Position numbers and translations under genes: made by a program. This document shows, piece by piece, positions 5,059-53,347 of a stretch of 58,362 nucleotides of DNA. Each line of letters opens with the position of its first letter. Within the stretch, counting starts at the first letter, position 1. The notes beneath the pieces are model-generated. The model saw only the letters and a program-made list of their open reading frames with translations, was not told the origin of the DNA and made no database searches. The DNA comes from Clostridiales bacterium (GTDB lineage: Bacteria; Bacillota; Clostridia; Caldicoprobacterales; UBA3941): positions 1 to 58,362 of the forward strand of contig JAAYGY010000101.1 in assembly GCA_012735575.1 (NCBI GenBank), given 5' to 3'.

Positions 5059-5195
5059 GTGGAAATCATCTAATACTTCATATATAATAAGAATAATTTA
5101 GTCATCATCCTAATTAATGTTTTTTTTATAAAGTAGCATAATAATTATCACTTGTATTAGGCTTTTAAAATGTAATAAGCCTTAGTTTTCTGCAA

Positions 5196-5229
5196 ATTAG
5201 TGTGGGAGTCAAGGTTCAATAGTTATTAT
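5196..5229 (-). repeat. Partial copy of the dispersed palindromic element
   Basis: These 34 bases match the reverse complement of the copy at 24811-24858 over the core and one arm. The shared pattern is ATTAGT-TGGGA-T-AAGG, then TTCAATAG, then ATTAT. The other arm is not recognisable, so this copy is truncated or eroded. It lies just before ispE. Confidence 0.6.
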
Positions 5230-7951: not shown

Positions 7952-7980
7952 AATATATAGCATAGGCTATATGTAATCAA
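7952..7980 (-). promoter_or_regulatory. Candidate sigma-A promoter for the YitJ-like gene
   Basis: On the minus strand TTGATT (7980-7975) and TATATT (7957-7952) are separated by 17 bp. The spacer contains a perfect palindrome, ATATAGC-CTAT-GCTATAT, which could be an operator. The transcript leader would be only about 20-25 nt, leaving no room for an S-box riboswitch such as precedes B. subtilis yitJ. Confidence 0.5.
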
Positions 7981-8012
7981 CCTTTTGTGCCAGTTCATCT
8001 CATATGAATGAC

Positions 8013-8055
8013 AATGACTATTGAATCTTCACTTCATCACTGATCAATAGCTATT
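8013..8055 (-). repeat. Copy of the dispersed palindromic element
   Basis: Imperfect inverted arms AATGACTATTGA (8013-8024) and TCAATAGCTATT (8044-8055) flank a 19-nt core. Read on the minus strand, the core aligns with the copies at 24811 and 5196 and contains AAGTGAAG, close to the AAGTGAAC in the copies at 27899 and 53247. Confidence 0.75.
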
Positions 8056-8101
8056 ATATGCATAAAGAATTATATGCATAAAGATTTATATGCATAAAGA
8101 T
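8054..8101. repeat. Three tandem 16-bp repeats in the divergent spacer 7923-8314
   Basis: TTATATGCATAAAGA plus one base is repeated three times (8054-8069, 8070-8085, 8086-8101); only the last base varies. Each unit contains the self-complementary TATGCATA, so there are three evenly spaced palindromes at about one and a half helical turns. The rest of the 392-bp spacer holds the YitJ-like promoter, a dispersed element copy and AT-rich DNA; a TATAAT at 8235-8240 without a good -35 could serve the rightward gene. Confidence 0.85.
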
Positions 8102-8314
8102 TAAAAGTATGAACCAGCATGACAGGTTAATTATAATACAGTACTGAATGAATATTAATACATCTTTTGAGGAATGTCAATTTATTGTCAAGACATGAGC
8201 TTTTAAAATTCTTCCTAATATCAGGACAATAAGATATAATAAGAAATAATACTTTAACTGGTTACAGCAAAGGGCCTTGTCAATATTTGTTAAGGGGAAG
8301 AGGGGTAGTAGCAG

Positions 8315-24810: not shown

Positions 24811-24858
24811 ATAATGGCTATTGAACCTTCATTCCCATACTAATCAATAGTCAATTAT
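24811..24858 (-). repeat. Copy of the dispersed palindromic element
   Basis: The arms are ATAATGGCTATTGA (24811-24824) and TCAATAGTCAATTAT (24844-24858). It lies in the 302-bp spacer between rpmE and yqhQ (24715-25016). Apart from the rpmE terminator and this element, that spacer holds only AT-rich sequence in which I see no other feature. Confidence 0.8.
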
Positions 24859-27893: not shown

Positions 27894-27898
27894 AATGG

Positions 27899-27955
27899 TA
27901 ATGGCTATTGATAAGTGAACAACCTACACTAATAATGAGCTATCAATAGCCATTA
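27899..27955 (+). repeat. Dispersed palindromic element, full-length copy
   Basis: The perfect 15-bp inverted arms TAATGGCTATTGATA (27899-27913) and TATCAATAGCCATTA (27941-27955) enclose a 27-nt core beginning AGTGAAC. It starts 6 bp after the prfA stop codon. There is no T run, so it is not a standard terminator. Confidence 0.85.
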
Positions 27956-28072
27956 TAAAAACATACCTTTGAATCTTTTAGAATATACTCTAATAGTGAA
28001 ATTTTAGTTATAGCAAAGCTTTAGTGAAAGTTTGTCACAGATTTGACAATAGGTGTATTTGGAGGTATGATC

Positions 28073-41936: not shown

Positions 41937-43205
41937 GTGTCAAAACTTATAGTTCGCCAAAGCCCGCCCCTGGTAGGAAGGGTAAAAATTGATGGTGCAA
42001 AGAATTCGGTCCTGCCAATTATGGCGGCTTCTTTGCTGACCGAAGAAAGATGTATTTTGGAGGATGTACCCCTATTAGAGGATGTTTATGTTGCCTGTCA
42101 GGTACTTAGGTGTTTTGGATCTCATGTAAAGATTAGCAATAATACCGTAATCATTGATAATAGTAATACCTATAAGGGTGAAGCCCCCTATGAGCTTACA
42201 AGAAAGATGAGGGCTTCTTTTCTGGTTATGGGGCCTTTATTGGCCCGTCATGGTCATGCCAAAATATCCATGCCAGGCGGCTGTGCCATTGGCAGCCGGC
42301 CTATTGACCTTCATCTAAAAGGTTTTTCTGCGCTGGGCGCAGACATTACCTTAGGCTATGGTTATATAGAGGCAAAGGCTGACAAACTGGTGGGCAGCAA
42401 GATATACCTGGATTTTCCCAGTGTGGGTGCAACGGAGAATATAATGATGGCAGCTGCCTTGGCCAGAGGGCAAACCATTATAGAAAACGCTGCAGAAGAG
42501 CCGGAGATAGTGGATCTTTCCAACTTTATAAATGCCATGGGTGGCAATGTAAGGGGTGCAGGGACCGGCACCATTAGAATAGAAGGGGTGGACAGATTAC
42601 ACGGGGCAGTCCATGGGGTTATACCCGATAGAATCGAGGCAGGCACCTTTATGGTGGCCGCTGCTATGACAAAGGGCAATGTACTACTGGAAAATGCCTT
42701 GATAGATCATCTAAAGCCCATTGAAGCCAAGCTAAAGGAAGCTGGAGCTGTCATTATAGATGAAGGGGAGGGTGTCAGGGTAATTGGACCAGATAGAATA
42801 AATCCCATAGATATAAAGACCTTGCCCTATCCTGGTTTTCCTACCGATATGCAGGCTCAAATGATGGCCATGGTTACCACAGCCCCGGGCACCAGTATTA
42901 TTACTGAAACGGTATTTGAAAACAGGTTTATGCATGTAAATGAACTGAAAAGATTAGGTGCCAATATCAAAATTGAAGGAAGAAGCGCCATAGTAGAAGG
43001 GGTGAGCCATCTTACCGGCACCAGCGTTAAAGCCACGGATCTTAGGGCAGGTGCAGCCTTGGTACTGGCAGGTCTTATAGCGCATGGGCAAACTGAAATA
43101 TCCAACATATATCACATAGACAGGGGCTACTATAGGATAGAGGAAAAACTCGCCAAGCTTGGTGCTAACATAAAAAGAATCCATCTAACGGATATTGATA
43201 AGTAA
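41937..43205 (+). CDS. murA: UDP-N-acetylglucosamine 1-carboxyvinyltransferase (MurA)
   Basis: MurA transfers enolpyruvate from PEP to UDP-GlcNAc, the first committed step of peptidoglycan synthesis. The 422-residue product has [16 protein letters not shown] (K22), the catalytic Cys C116 in [15 protein letters not shown] (the fosfomycin target), and [13 protein letters not shown] choose GTG 41937, 6 nt after AGGTGG; ATG 41922 precedes that site. ywmB-murA-spoIID order is conserved in Firmicutes. The Cys form predicts fosfomycin sensitivity at the target level. Confidence 0.96.
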
Positions 43206-45383: not shown

Positions 45384-45399
45384 ATAATGGCTATTGATA
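45384..45399 (-). repeat. Half copy of the dispersed palindromic element
   Basis: ATAATGGCTATTGATA matches one arm of the 27899 copy (15 of 15 shared bases). The other arm is missing; a terminator hairpin takes its place. On the minus strand AAGTGG precedes the arm, as in the cores of other copies. Confidence 0.65.
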
Positions 45400-45410
45400 T
45401 TACCACTTAG

Positions 45411-45435
45411 AACCGCCCATAAAAAGGCGGTTTTT
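45411..45435 (+). terminator. Rho-independent terminator after spoIIQ
   Basis: AACCGCC (45411-45417) pairs perfectly with GGCGGTT (45426-45432), followed by a T run. Confidence 0.9.
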
Positions 45436-45542
45436 AAATCCAAAAATCCCCTTCTATATCCTTCAAATCCTGCATATTTATCAAATATACCCACTGAAAT
45501 TACTGTAAGTTTTCTGGAAGGATATCTTGAGGGGGGTTAAAG

Positions 45543-49749: not shown

Positions 49750-49903
49750 CCCTTCTGTTTATTATTCAATTTTGCATATTCTTCTATAGAACTTAATTTA
49801 GATATTTCCCTGTTTTCTTCTTTTGTAGAATATTCATCTGGATATTATATAATATCTAACCTATACATACAATCCATTAATACCATATAAGGACTGAAAT
49901 ATA

Positions 49904-49933
49904 TTGACAAAAAAATTACAAATATGATAGATT
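49904..49933 (+). promoter_or_regulatory. Candidate promoter of the sugar cassette; spacer 49750-50067
   Basis: TTGACA (49904-49909) and TAGATT (49928-49933) are separated by 18 bp. They lie in a 318-bp gene-free spacer. The rest of the spacer is AT-rich, with the 13-bp tandem repeats just before the first dehydrogenase gene. Confidence 0.45.
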
Positions 49934-50003
49934 GAACTTAACCTAAAGGTATCAATCCCTTTGTTAGTCTCTATATAAGCTTAATTTAAAAGGCTGGTTA
50001 TAC

Positions 50004-50042
50004 ATTTTATAGATTCAACTTATAGATTTAACTTATAAATTC
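50004..50042 (+). repeat. 13-bp tandem repeats, array 1
   Basis: Three units in head-to-tail order: ATTTTATAGATTC (50004-50016), AACTTATAGATTT (50017-50029) and AACTTATAAATTC (50030-50042). The array ends 25 bp before the dehydrogenase start. Period and sequence match array 2 at 52081-52153. Confidence 0.8.
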
Positions 50043-50067
50043 AACTAAGCAATGAAGGGGGATAACA

Positions 50068-51087
50068 ATGAAACAGGCCATTATGGTAGCACCTGGACAA
50101 ATTGAGTTTAGGGATGTTCCAGTGCCGGAGGTAAAACCAGATCAAATCAAGGTTAAAATGAAAAAGATTGGTGTGTGCGGATCCGATATCCATGTCTATC
50201 ATGGCAAGCATCCATATACCAGCTATCCTGTTGTACAGGGGCATGAGGTTTCTGCCCAGGTGGTTGAGGTAGGAAGTCGGGTGACCAATGTAGCCCTAGG
50301 GGACAAGGTGACCATTCAGCCCCAGGTTGTTTGCGGTAAATGTTATCCTTGTACCCATGGAATCTATAATGTCTGTGAAGCGCTTAAGGTAATGGGTTTC
50401 CAAACCACAGGTATGGCAAGTGAATACTTTGTTACAGATGCAAAAAAAGCTGTAAAACTGCCCGATGACATGAGCTGGGATCATGGAGCAATGATAGAAC
50501 CTCTGGCAGTAGCGGTACATGCAGTAAGGCTTGCTGGTGATGTGACAGGCAAAAAGGCAGTAGTTTTAGGTGGGGGCCCTATTGGTAATCTAGTAGCCCA
50601 GACAATAAAAGCAATGGGTGGAGAGGATGTTATTCTATCCGAGTTAAGCCAATACAGGCTGGAAACTGCCAAAAAGTGTGGAATAAAGACAGTAGATGTG
50701 AAAGAAGAAGACCTGCTACAGGCCATTGAAGATAATTTTGGCAAGGACAGGGCAGATTTCATATTTGAATGTGTTGGGATCAGTGAAACCATGAATCAGG
50801 CAATCCAATATGCCCGCAAGGGAAGCACCATTGTGGTAGTTGGGGTGTTTGGAGATCTTGGAAGGATAAACATGGGTTATGTACAGGATCGTGAATTAAC
50901 CCTTAAAGGCAGTGCCATGTATCGGGAGGAAGACTATATAAAGGCAATAGAACTGGTTAATAAGGGATTAATAGAGTTTGATGCCCTTATAACCCACCAT
51001 GTGCCCTTTGAGGAATATAAACAGGCTTATGAGATTATTGATGAACAAAAGGATAGGGCAATGAAGGTTATTATAGACATGGATTAG
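50068..51087 (+). CDS. Zinc-dependent medium-chain dehydrogenase, polyol/sorbitol type
   Basis: The 339-residue protein is a medium-chain dehydrogenase: catalytic zinc ligands C37 in GVCGSDIH, His in QGHE (VVQGHEVSAQV) and a Glu later, a structural zinc loop CGKCYPCTHGIYNVC, and the Rossmann motif VVLGGGPIGNLVAQ. It resembles sorbitol/xylitol dehydrogenases more than simple alcohol dehydrogenases. The PfkB kinase starts 4 bp after its stop, so a polyol could be oxidised to a ketose and then phosphorylated. ATG 50068 follows GAAGGGGG. Substrate unknown. Confidence 0.9.
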   Translation: MKQAIMVAPGQIEFRDVPVPEVKPDQIKVKMKKIGVCGSDIHVYHGKHPYTSYPVVQGHEVSAQVVEVGSRVTNVALGDKVTIQPQVVCGKCYPCTHGIYNVCEALKVMGFQTTGMASEYFVTDAKKAVKLPDDMSWDHGAMIEPLAVAVHAVRLAGDVTGKKAVVLGGGPIGNLVAQTIKAMGGEDVILSELSQYRLETAKKCGIKTVDVKEEDLLQAIEDNFGKDRADFIFECVGISETMNQAIQYARKGSTIVVVGVFGDLGRINMGYVQDRELTLKGSAMYREEDYIKAIELVNKGLIEFDALITHHVPFEEYKQAYEIIDEQKDRAMKVIIDMD

Positions 51088-51091
51088 AGAG

Positions 51092-52078
51092 GTGGAGGTT
51101 TTGATAGACAAGGTATTTGATGTAACTGCACTGGGAGAACTCCTTATGGATATGACCCCCTATGGAATTTCCAAGCAGGGAAATAACCTGTTGGAAGCAA
51201 ACCCAGGGGGAGCACCCTGCAATGTTTTGTCCATGGTCAGTAAATTAGGAGGAAAAACAGCCTTTATTGGAAAAGTGGGCAAGGATCAGTTTGGGCACAT
51301 GTTAGAAGAGACTTTAGCAGCCCAAAACATTAATACAGAAGGGCTGATAAAGGATCCTGAGTATCTGACAACATTGGCCTTTGTACATCTGGACTCTAGG
51401 GGCGAGCGTTCCTTTAGCTTTTATAGAAAACCGGGAGCCGATATGATGCTGGAAAAGCAGGAAATCAATCAAGACCTTATAAAGCAGGCAAGGATTTTTC
51501 ATTTTGGAACCCTTTCCATGACCAATGAGCCAGTGTTAAGTGCTACCATGTTTGCCATAGATCTTGCAATGGAAAATGGCTGTATGATTTCCTTTGATCC
51601 CAATATAAGACCGCTATTGTGGGATTCTTTAGAAAATGCAAAGATGCAGATGGAATATGGCTTTAGCAAGTGCCATATTCTAAAGATTTCAGAAGAGGAA
51701 ATCCAGCTGGCAACAGGGATAAGTGATTCCCATAAAGCTGCTCAGGACTTACGGAACAGTTTTCCAAATATTAAGCTGATCTTTGTCACTGCCGGAGAAA
51801 AGGGCAGTACCTTCTACTATAATAATATTAAGCGGAAGGTTGCACCTTTTTTACATGACAAGACCATAGACACTACCGGTGCGGGAGATGCTTTTATGGG
51901 CAGCTGCCTCTATGAATTAGCAAAATCAGGGCTTGATTCTTTGGATGAGGAAAAACTTTATGAAATAACCCGATTTGCCAATGCTGCAGCCTCCCTGGTT
52001 ATTACTAAAAAAGGTGCATTAAAAGTCATGCCTCATCGCCAGGCTGTAGAAGCTTTTATACAAAAGTATGATAGCTGA
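51092..52078 (+). CDS. PfkB-family sugar kinase, fructokinase type
   Basis: The 328-residue protein has the PfkB pattern: ALGELLMDMTPYG at the start, NPGGAPCNVLSMVSKLGGKTAFIGKVG (substrate motif), SFDPNIRPLLW and C-terminal DTTGAGDAFMGSCLYEL, with the catalytic Asp in GAGD. The two motifs resemble ScrK-type fructokinases, so fructose is the most likely substrate. The start is uncertain: GTG 51092 or TTG 51101, beside GGTGGAGG. It is flanked by two dehydrogenases, which fits polyol-to-ketose-to-ketose-phosphate chemistry. No transporter is in the window. Confidence 0.9.
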   Translation: MEVLIDKVFDVTALGELLMDMTPYGISKQGNNLLEANPGGAPCNVLSMVSKLGGKTAFIGKVGKDQFGHMLEETLAAQNINTEGLIKDPEYLTTLAFVHLDSRGERSFSFYRKPGADMMLEKQEINQDLIKQARIFHFGTLSMTNEPVLSATMFAIDLAMENGCMISFDPNIRPLLWDSLENAKMQMEYGFSKCHILKISEEEIQLATGISDSHKAAQDLRNSFPNIKLIFVTAGEKGSTFYYNNIKRKVAPFLHDKTIDTTGAGDAFMGSCLYELAKSGLDSLDEEKLYEITRFANAAASLVITKKGALKVMPHRQAVEAFIQKYDS

Positions 52079-52080
52079 CC

Positions 52081-52153
52081 AATATATAGAATTATAGAAT
52101 TAATATATAAAATCAATATATAAAATCAATTTATGGAACCAATATATGAAATG
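52081..52153 (+). repeat. 13-bp tandem repeats, array 2
   Basis: Units: AATATATAGAATT (52081), a partial ATAGAATT (52094), AATATATAAAATC (52102 and 52115), AATTTATGGAACC (52128) and AATATATGAAATG (52141-52153). The spacing is 13 bp except for the partial unit. It shares a consensus of AA-n-n-TATA-R-A-W-TC with array 1. The last unit overlaps the ribosome binding site of the following dehydrogenase. Confidence 0.8.
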
Positions 52154-52164
52154 GAGTGTTGAGT

Positions 52165-53190
52165 ATGAAGGCAGCAGTTTTTAAGGGTAAGGGCCTTATT
52201 GATACACAAGAGGTGCTCATGCCTGTATGCGGGGATATGGATGTTATAGTTAAAGTCATGGCCTGCGGTATTTGCGGTACTGATGTGCATATATTTAATG
52301 GTGCAGAAGGAGCGGCTGCTACCACACCTCCTGTTATTTTGGGTCATGAGTTCGCAGGTATTGTAGAAGAGGTGGGTGCTAAGGTAAAGGACATTAAAAT
52401 TGGTGACAGGGTTGCAGTTGATCCTAATGATACCTGCGGCAATTGCTATTACTGCAAAAATGGACTGGCTCATTTTTGCCAGAATATGAAAGGTTACGGT
52501 ACTACAACAGACGGAGGATTTGCCCAATACTGTGTAGTTAACTATAAACAGATTTACAAGCTGGCAGATAAGGTTTCCTTTGAAGAGGGTGCTATGTGCG
52601 AGCCCCTTGCCTGTTGTCTTCATGGAATTGATCTTTGTGAGATAAAGCCGGGTTACAGGGTTATGGTCATTGGTGGCGGTACTATTGGCCTTATAATGGT
52701 TCAACTGGCCAAAATGCGCGGAGCAGCAAAAATCATCTTGCTAGAACCAGTTGGGGAGAAAAGAGCCATAGGTGCAAAACTGGGTGCCGACATAGTTATA
52801 GATCCTATTCATGAGGATGTGGAGAAGGTTTTAGCTAAAAATAATATAGAGCAGATTGAAACTGTGATCGAATGTGTGGGACTGAAATCTACCATGTTGG
52901 ATGCCATTAAGTTTGCAGGCAAAAACTCAGTAGCCATGTTATTTGGCCTGGGCAACCCAGATGATGAGATTCCTATAAAACCCTTTGAAATATTTAGAAA
53001 GGAAGTTACCATCAAGGCGTCTTATATAAATCCCTATACCCAGGGCAGAGCTGTAAGCCTTATTAATTCCGGAAAAATAGATGTCAAGAGTTTAATTTCG
53101 GGTACTATCTCCTTGGATGAATTAAGGGATACGCTATCTGATCCATCAAAAAGGCAAAAGGGTAAGGTTATGGTAAATCCATGGTGCTAG
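52165..53190 (+). CDS. Zinc-dependent medium-chain dehydrogenase, second copy
   Basis: The 341-residue protein is a second medium-chain dehydrogenase, with GICGTDVHIF, ILGHEFAGIV, the structural zinc loop CGNCYYCKNGLAHFC and Rossmann motif VIGGGTIGLIMVQ. It is only distantly similar to the one at 50068. ATG 52165 lies 8 nt after GGAG; in-frame GTG 52156 is inside that site. It resembles sorbitol dehydrogenase or L-threonine dehydrogenase-type enzymes. It is the last gene of the sugar cassette; an inverted repeat follows it. Confidence 0.9.
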   Translation: MKAAVFKGKGLIDTQEVLMPVCGDMDVIVKVMACGICGTDVHIFNGAEGAAATTPPVILGHEFAGIVEEVGAKVKDIKIGDRVAVDPNDTCGNCYYCKNGLAHFCQNMKGYGTTTDGGFAQYCVVNYKQIYKLADKVSFEEGAMCEPLACCLHGIDLCEIKPGYRVMVIGGGTIGLIMVQLAKMRGAAKIILLEPVGEKRAIGAKLGADIVIDPIHEDVEKVLAKNNIEQIETVIECVGLKSTMLDAIKFAGKNSVAMLFGLGNPDDEIPIKPFEIFRKEVTIKASYINPYTQGRAVSLINSGKIDVKSLISGTISLDELRDTLSDPSKRQKGKVMVNPWC

Positions 53191-53246
53191 CCATATCCTC
53201 TTTTTCATTAACCTATTGTGCTAGATCAAAGTTATCACTATATGAG

Positions 53247-53289
53247 TATAATTAGCTATTGATAAGTGAACCATCAATAGCTAATTATA
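53247..53289 (+). repeat. Dispersed palindromic element, perfect copy
   Basis: Perfect 17-bp arms TATAATTAGCTATTGAT (53247-53263) and ATCAATAGCTAATTATA (53273-53289) surround a 9-nt loop, AAGTGAACC. Compared with the copy at 27899, two arm positions change on both sides and pairing is kept. Confidence 0.85.
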
Positions 53290-53347
53290 TTGTACTGGTA
53301 CGATAGGTTATTTTTTATGTCTGAATAAAAAGGTAAAAAATTTAAAA

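Follow-up and report, generated by a model that had tools for sequence, protein, structure and literature searches.

The stretch of DNA analyzed here (the window, 58,362 nucleotides) belongs, as one contig among 105, to a 2.59-Mb genome (G000), whose nearest relatives are 'Clostridiales bacterium' MAGs. The repeats that it carries have ordinary chromosomal neighbors (SipL-like protein, RF-1-domain protein, ZIP transporter, M23 peptidase, MreB, and PurR). An earlier, sequence-only reading had listed related inverted repeats at six places, and all of these are present, in both orientations and in spacers. The copy at 27899, a palindromic short form on the forward strand (27898..27956; arms of 14-15 bp, core of 27-31 nt) without recognizable outer terminal inverted repeats (TIRs), is placed between the gene for a PCRF/RF-1-domain protein (prfA-like) and a ZIP transporter gene. 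Its perfect 15-bp arms (27899-27913/27941-27955) and the perfect 17-bp arms of the copy at 53247 (53247-53263/53273-53289) are as that reading had described them, at 27899-27955 and 53247-53289. In the orthologous 27899 spacer of the sister genome G001 (C64:940-1007), the arms are identical and the core has diverged.

Two complete short elements with outer TIRs, which had gone unnoticed in the earlier reading, lie in the window. The first (53210..53310, forward) has a left TIR at 53210-53227 (AACCTATTGTGCTAGATC), the palindrome at 53247-53289 and a degenerate right TIR ending near 53310, an end judged by eye. The second (7979..8128, reverse) has both TIRs, AACCTTTTGTGCCAGTTC (7979-7996) and GAACCAGCATGACAGGTTAA (to about 8128), additional TATGCATAAAG repeats in its interior, and a palindrome at 8011..8057 (reverse) with a medium core (TCAGTGATGAAGTGAAGAT) and three arm mismatches to the consensus; three tandem TATGCATAAAGA-like repeats occupy 8058-8100 within it. 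All other window copies have lost their ends. The palindromic short form at 24811..24857 (reverse; recognizable outer TIRs absent) has four arm mismatches to the consensus, and its orthologous spacer holds a long form in opposite orientation in G002, a remnant in G001 and no element in G004 or G005. The stretch 5159..5229 (forward) corresponds to the 3' half of a long form that has degenerated; it shows 83% identity to the long form at C26:7137-7423 (over query positions 176-247), and the arm at 5216-5229 is the 3' end of this fragment. A half element with a single arm (45384..45398, forward; matched arm 45384-45397) is absent from the orthologous place in G001; a clear intrinsic terminator (ACCGCCCATAAAAAGGCGGTTTTT) is found downstream of it, at 45413-45438. 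The stretch 43185..43205 (forward; GGATATTGATAAGTAAATGA) is possibly a further remnant, a weak assignment, and at the orthologous spacer G001 has an intact palindrome and G002 the end of an element. The region 49760-53320, which holds a PfkB kinase gene and two genes of the zinc alcohol dehydrogenase-like kind, adjoins the 53247 element at its end and has no alignment at the syntenic place in G001 or G004.

Copies extend well beyond the six of the window. A covariance model of the 44-nt palindrome, ATAATGGCTATTGA-(about 10 nt)-TCAATAGCCATTAT with the consensus ATAATGGCTATTGA-TAAGTGAACG-TCAATAGCCATTAT, found 46 distinct places (70 strand-wise matches) in the 2.59-Mb genome. The pattern GCTATTGA-N5-35-TCAATAG has 32 strand-wise genome matches (17 forward, 15 reverse), whereas the reversed-pattern control has none, and a single arm with at most one mismatch has 93 matches against 10 for its control. 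Several copies share the flank TTCATATGAGATGAACTAGCACAA, which was the clue leading to the outer TIRs (CYGGTTGTGCTAGTTC at both ends; 53 matches at three mismatches or fewer, control 2). The palindrome is thus only the middle of a complete short element of about 115 bp. In a long form of about 275 bp, a pair of nested stems and a pair of hairpins take the place of the core and form a head of about 125 nt. Copies are 115-285 bp in size, contain no transposase ORF and are intergenic in 65 of 66 cases; gene context was taken from longest-ORF calls and these counts are approximate. Contigs C19 and C54 start with an identical 103-bp sequence (L144:1-123, L187:1-111) that has the same outer TIR and another palindromic interior (AAACYCCGGCATATGTTATAC), and a related copy is found on C66 (L331:1455-1575). 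These contig ends were considered as ends of an autonomous IS, which was rejected because they belong to another short palindromic element, and no transposase with the TIRs came to light; they seem to represent a second element that was recently active and shares these ends.

Among the genomes searched, the element is confined to one clostridial family. The palindrome model (R1) found copies in five of 41 related genomes, all of that family. The long form has 33, 22, 28, 20, and 27 matching stretches in the five carrier genomes; the other 25 of the 30 genomes searched for it, namely the sixth family member and 24 from other families of the order, have no match. Plasmid and phage records were searched and yielded no similar DNA; the 26 matches of a degenerate-pattern scan of viral contigs are probably due to chance.

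The ends of the elements carry the signature of transposition. In a set of 33 complete elements from the own and sister genomes, filtered by hand and scored at the expected offsets, flanking target duplications match at seven or more of eight bases in 11 (shuffled mean 3.9, and no shuffle out of 2000 reaching this number), a count that is weakened because most duplications in the own genome have decayed and the targets are AT-rich. The duplications are 8-9 bp long, in TTAAwTTA-like targets, such as TTAATGTA at C9:49767, ATAATTAA at C89:71439, and TATATTAA at C1:10296. Within one genome, long copies from separate loci can be as much as 97% identical, a sign that some insertions are recent, while the arms shared with the sister species in the 27899 spacer indicate that some copies are old. 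Identity between long copies of the own and another genus reaches 95%, and neighboring genes of those genera are 71-80% identical.

REP and MITE families had both been suggested by the sequence-only reading. REP-type elements, moved by a RAYT (Y1 HUH) transposase, are likewise small intergenic palindromes in tens of copies. HUH/REP systems make no target duplications, whereas here the palindrome is internal to longer TIRs with flanking duplications, and the GTAG/CGTC tag is absent at the hairpin foot of the consensus; a REP origin is therefore extremely improbable. The MITE suggestion has held, with TIRs, 8-9-bp target duplications, short dispersed intergenic copies without a transposase ORF, and restriction to one lineage. 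We conclude that the palindromes are very probably internally deleted or decayed copies of a MITE-like, non-autonomous transposable element, which a DDE-type transposase would move in trans. ERIC, RUP, Correia, and BOX are dispersed palindromic intergenic repeats with deletion variants, and to our knowledge they have no sequence relation to the clostridial element and no link to the TwoAYGGAY RNA discussed below. In the features named they resemble the present family (partly PMC10969869). Bacterial MITEs with 7-9-bp direct repeats, such as QMITE2 of Coxiella, have TIRs and AT-rich target duplications of 8-9 bp as well, and the size of about 115-285 bp, intergenic location, lack of an ORF and folding of the whole element are also shared with bacterial MITEs (PMC10969869). 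Unlike these, the present element has a structured RNA head that is conserved across clostridial families with differing terminal repeats.

This head is where pairing is most strongly maintained. Both hairpins have GGA in the loop without exception in 14 long copies, taken from four genomes, and 93.1% of cells pair in the consensus structure. Double changes occur in 12 pairs (5.7 in shuffled alignments, maximum 10 in 2000 shuffles) and, counted by cells, 26 times (9.8 shuffled, maximum 18), an excess that is abolished by sliding the pairing partner by one to three columns; the alignment was made with MAFFT, and the gap in hairpin 1 was placed by hand before pairs were counted. Stem 1 has Watson-Crick pairs in some copies and tandem G-A mismatches in others, and the constraint therefore seems to act on the GGA strand as RNA. 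The features of the head are those of TwoAYGGAY RNA (RF01731), which is listed for human gut, gamma-Proteobacteria, and Clostridiales (Weinberg et al., 2010; PMC2864571). Both have two adjacent GGA-loop hairpins, an AG linker, CGGU after hairpin 2, closing stems and tandem G-A mismatches in a stem, and tandem G-A pairs are already recorded for TwoAYGGAY in PMC4333381. Differences are that the loops here are mostly AGGAY pentaloops instead of AYGGAY hexaloops, and that the head lies inside a TIR element with 20-33 stretches per genome and many headless short forms.

Long forms of the sister genome G005 score 57.3 and 50.5 bits against RF01731 (gathering threshold 43), whereas those of the own genome, at 37.0 and 34.8 bits, fall just below it. 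Reciprocal recognition is a stronger test of identity than these scores. A model built from 11 long forms of the family of the window genome only (R2) recognizes TwoAYGGAY loci of four unrelated clostridial families (f40, f18, f23, f24) with E values of 4e-6 to 4e-14. It gave no match on three syntenic control loci, left copies of G223, G138, G379, G053, and G112 unmatched and did not reach families f28, f29, and f54. The long form is thus a member or close variant of TwoAYGGAY, and for this form the folded RNA element proposed in the sequence-only reading is borne out by covariation and the Rfam match. In the window, neither an Rfam scan at the gathering threshold nor R2 gave a match, and the GGA head is absent from the copies at 27899, 53247, and others. 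These headless copies are not TwoAYGGAY themselves and most likely descend from a TwoAYGGAY long form; since they lack the head, a function of the short forms in the window has no support.

The route from long to short form can be read from the feet of the head, where AAGTGAACG occurs as a direct repeat on both sides. Deletion between these repeats would give rise to the short forms: GATAAGTGAACG and AAGTGAACGTTC, joined with loss of what lies between, yield exactly GATAAGTGAACGTTC, and GATAAGTGAACGTTCAATAG is the exact leftover expected of a AAGTGAACG-AAGTGAACG deletion. To judge from its sequence, GATAAGTGATGAAGTGAACGTTC may be a second deletion product of the same kind. Arm differences between 27899 and 53247 had been taken as compensated and as a sign that pairing is being kept. 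The difference is indeed symmetrical, ATGGC versus ATTAGC in both arms, while across 64 copies base-by-base compensation, at 11 positions against 6.5 in shuffled arms, does not rise significantly above shuffling (p = 0.11). Identical arm pairs are in excess in the same copies (16 versus 10.1 shuffled, p = 0.006), so that compensation in the short arms is weak, and it is the head of the long form that covaries strongly. The sequence-only reading had named two outcomes that would count against it, a lack of further copies and a lack of compensatory changes, and neither was obtained. With arm complementarity only weakly in excess, we regard the short forms as remnants in decay, which quasipalindrome correction may have tidied.

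Such correction by template switching, with arms kept complementary in the absence of selection and copies that are neutral fossils, is as a full account possible and rather unlikely. It would explain the surplus of identical arm pairs, even if short-arm compensation is weak overall, and a pair of orthologous palindromes with perfect arms (C16:35850 and G001:C134:4808; L008 and L306), in which the loop looks inverted between the sister species. However, the orientations of core and outer flank are concordant in 18 copies and discordant in two weak cases, from which it follows that inversion is not common, and loop inversion as a general process was rejected on this count. The invariant GGA loops of the long form are also left unexplained. 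For the short forms, quasipalindrome correction is compatible with the MITE-like explanation.

A different account would have the palindromes act in cis as RNA at transcript ends, as terminator, attenuator or stabilizer of mRNA 3' ends, and be selected in each spacer. The hairpins are stable compared with shuffled sequence (z of -5.9 for 27899 and -3.6 for 53247), arms are kept in the orthologous spacers of 27899 and C16:35850 despite diverged flanks or cores, and the excess of identical arm pairs (p = 0.006) would fit as well. Yet the stem is AT-rich with no U-tract after it, copies present in one sister genome are missing in another, and the spacers are of background type (75% tandem, 12.5% convergent, and 12.5% divergent versus 73, 9, and 18%). 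In 33 of 45 tandem spacers the RNA (GGA) strand runs counter to the flanking genes (p about 0.003 by normal approximation; 66 copies in G000), a bias that depends on crude gene calls and on short-form orientations taken from the core. Given this strand bias and the background spacer types, a cis role at transcript ends, which the sequence-only reading had put forward, is highly unlikely. An intrinsic terminator in particular was rejected in view of the AT-rich stem without a U-run and the spacer types.

The GGA loops also call to mind CsrA. A CsrA-sponge role for TwoAYGGAY was proposed in 2014 (PMC4333381), and the elements might accordingly be copies of a regulatory sRNA that titrates CsrA, dispersed by gene duplication. 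The invariant GGA in both loops, the covarying stems, the RF01731 match and the CsrA motif proposed in that paper agree with this, and GGA-loop hairpins are common to the CsrA-titrating sRNAs of the CsrB/RsmZ class. Those sRNAs, unlike the present mobile repeats, are single loci, and here CsrA is missing from most carriers: CsrA (PF02599) is absent from G000, G001, G002, and G003 (96, 95, 92, and 83% complete), and only G005 is positive among carriers. In addition, the short copies are entirely without the GGA head, and TIRs and target duplications point to transposition. A CsrA sponge was rejected as a general explanation on account of the absence of CsrA from four of five carriers, and dispersed sRNA genes of this kind are improbable. 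Within the family, CsrA is missing from the five genomes G000-G004 and encoded by G005 alone, and the window encodes a CheA-like chemotaxis kinase.

For the MITE-like element, a possible reason for the persistence of the head is that one of its strands serves the element as an RNA, which might bind a protein that recognizes GGA loops or help the host to tolerate element transcripts. We favor element-level selection acting through an RNA copy of the GGA strand, and give it slightly less than even chances. A role of the head as a DNA hairpin in transposition is distinctly less likely, and CsrA or a CsrA-like protein as its partner is less likely still.

In many clostridia, TwoAYGGAY RNA seems to form the core of mobile repeats. 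Of 391 genomes of the class, 37 have RF01731 matches, often with at least seven copies per genome among the matches listed. The TwoAYGGAY copies that were examined are intergenic, multi-copy and palindromic, with long outer inverted repeats that vary from one family to another, and within several genomes they are 87-97% identical. A complete 3.14-Mb genome (G065) has six near-identical copies of about 285 bp with the common end TGYRATTCGTAATAT, whose own flanks are duplicated at 8, 7, 8, 8, 8, and 6 of 8 bases, compared with a mean of 4.9 for mismatched flanks. In genomes of family f23, a second TwoAYGGAY-like copy is found at a distance of a few hundred bases from the first, as if the two were paired (L427:772-909, L428:126-263, L429:756-893, L445:270-406). 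No description of TwoAYGGAY as a mobile element was found in the literature, in a search mostly outside subscription papers. It is a tentative proposal, which we hold to be possible and short of likely, that TwoAYGGAY is not a cis-regulator but the core of widespread clostridial mobile elements, with an RNA or single-stranded DNA hairpin that serves movement or survival and terminal repeats exchanged between lineages.

The link between an Rfam family of the 'cis-regulatory' type and mobile repeats is unexpected, and constitutes the main interest of these results. The short forms illustrate how a structured-RNA element can, through deletion, leave tiny palindromes behind between genes. Rfam types TwoAYGGAY as cis-regulatory, and if it is the core of a mobile repeat the annotation of such matches would change, and its otherwise odd distribution would be accounted for. 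This raises the question why two RNA hairpins with GGA loops are conserved across families, even without CsrA.
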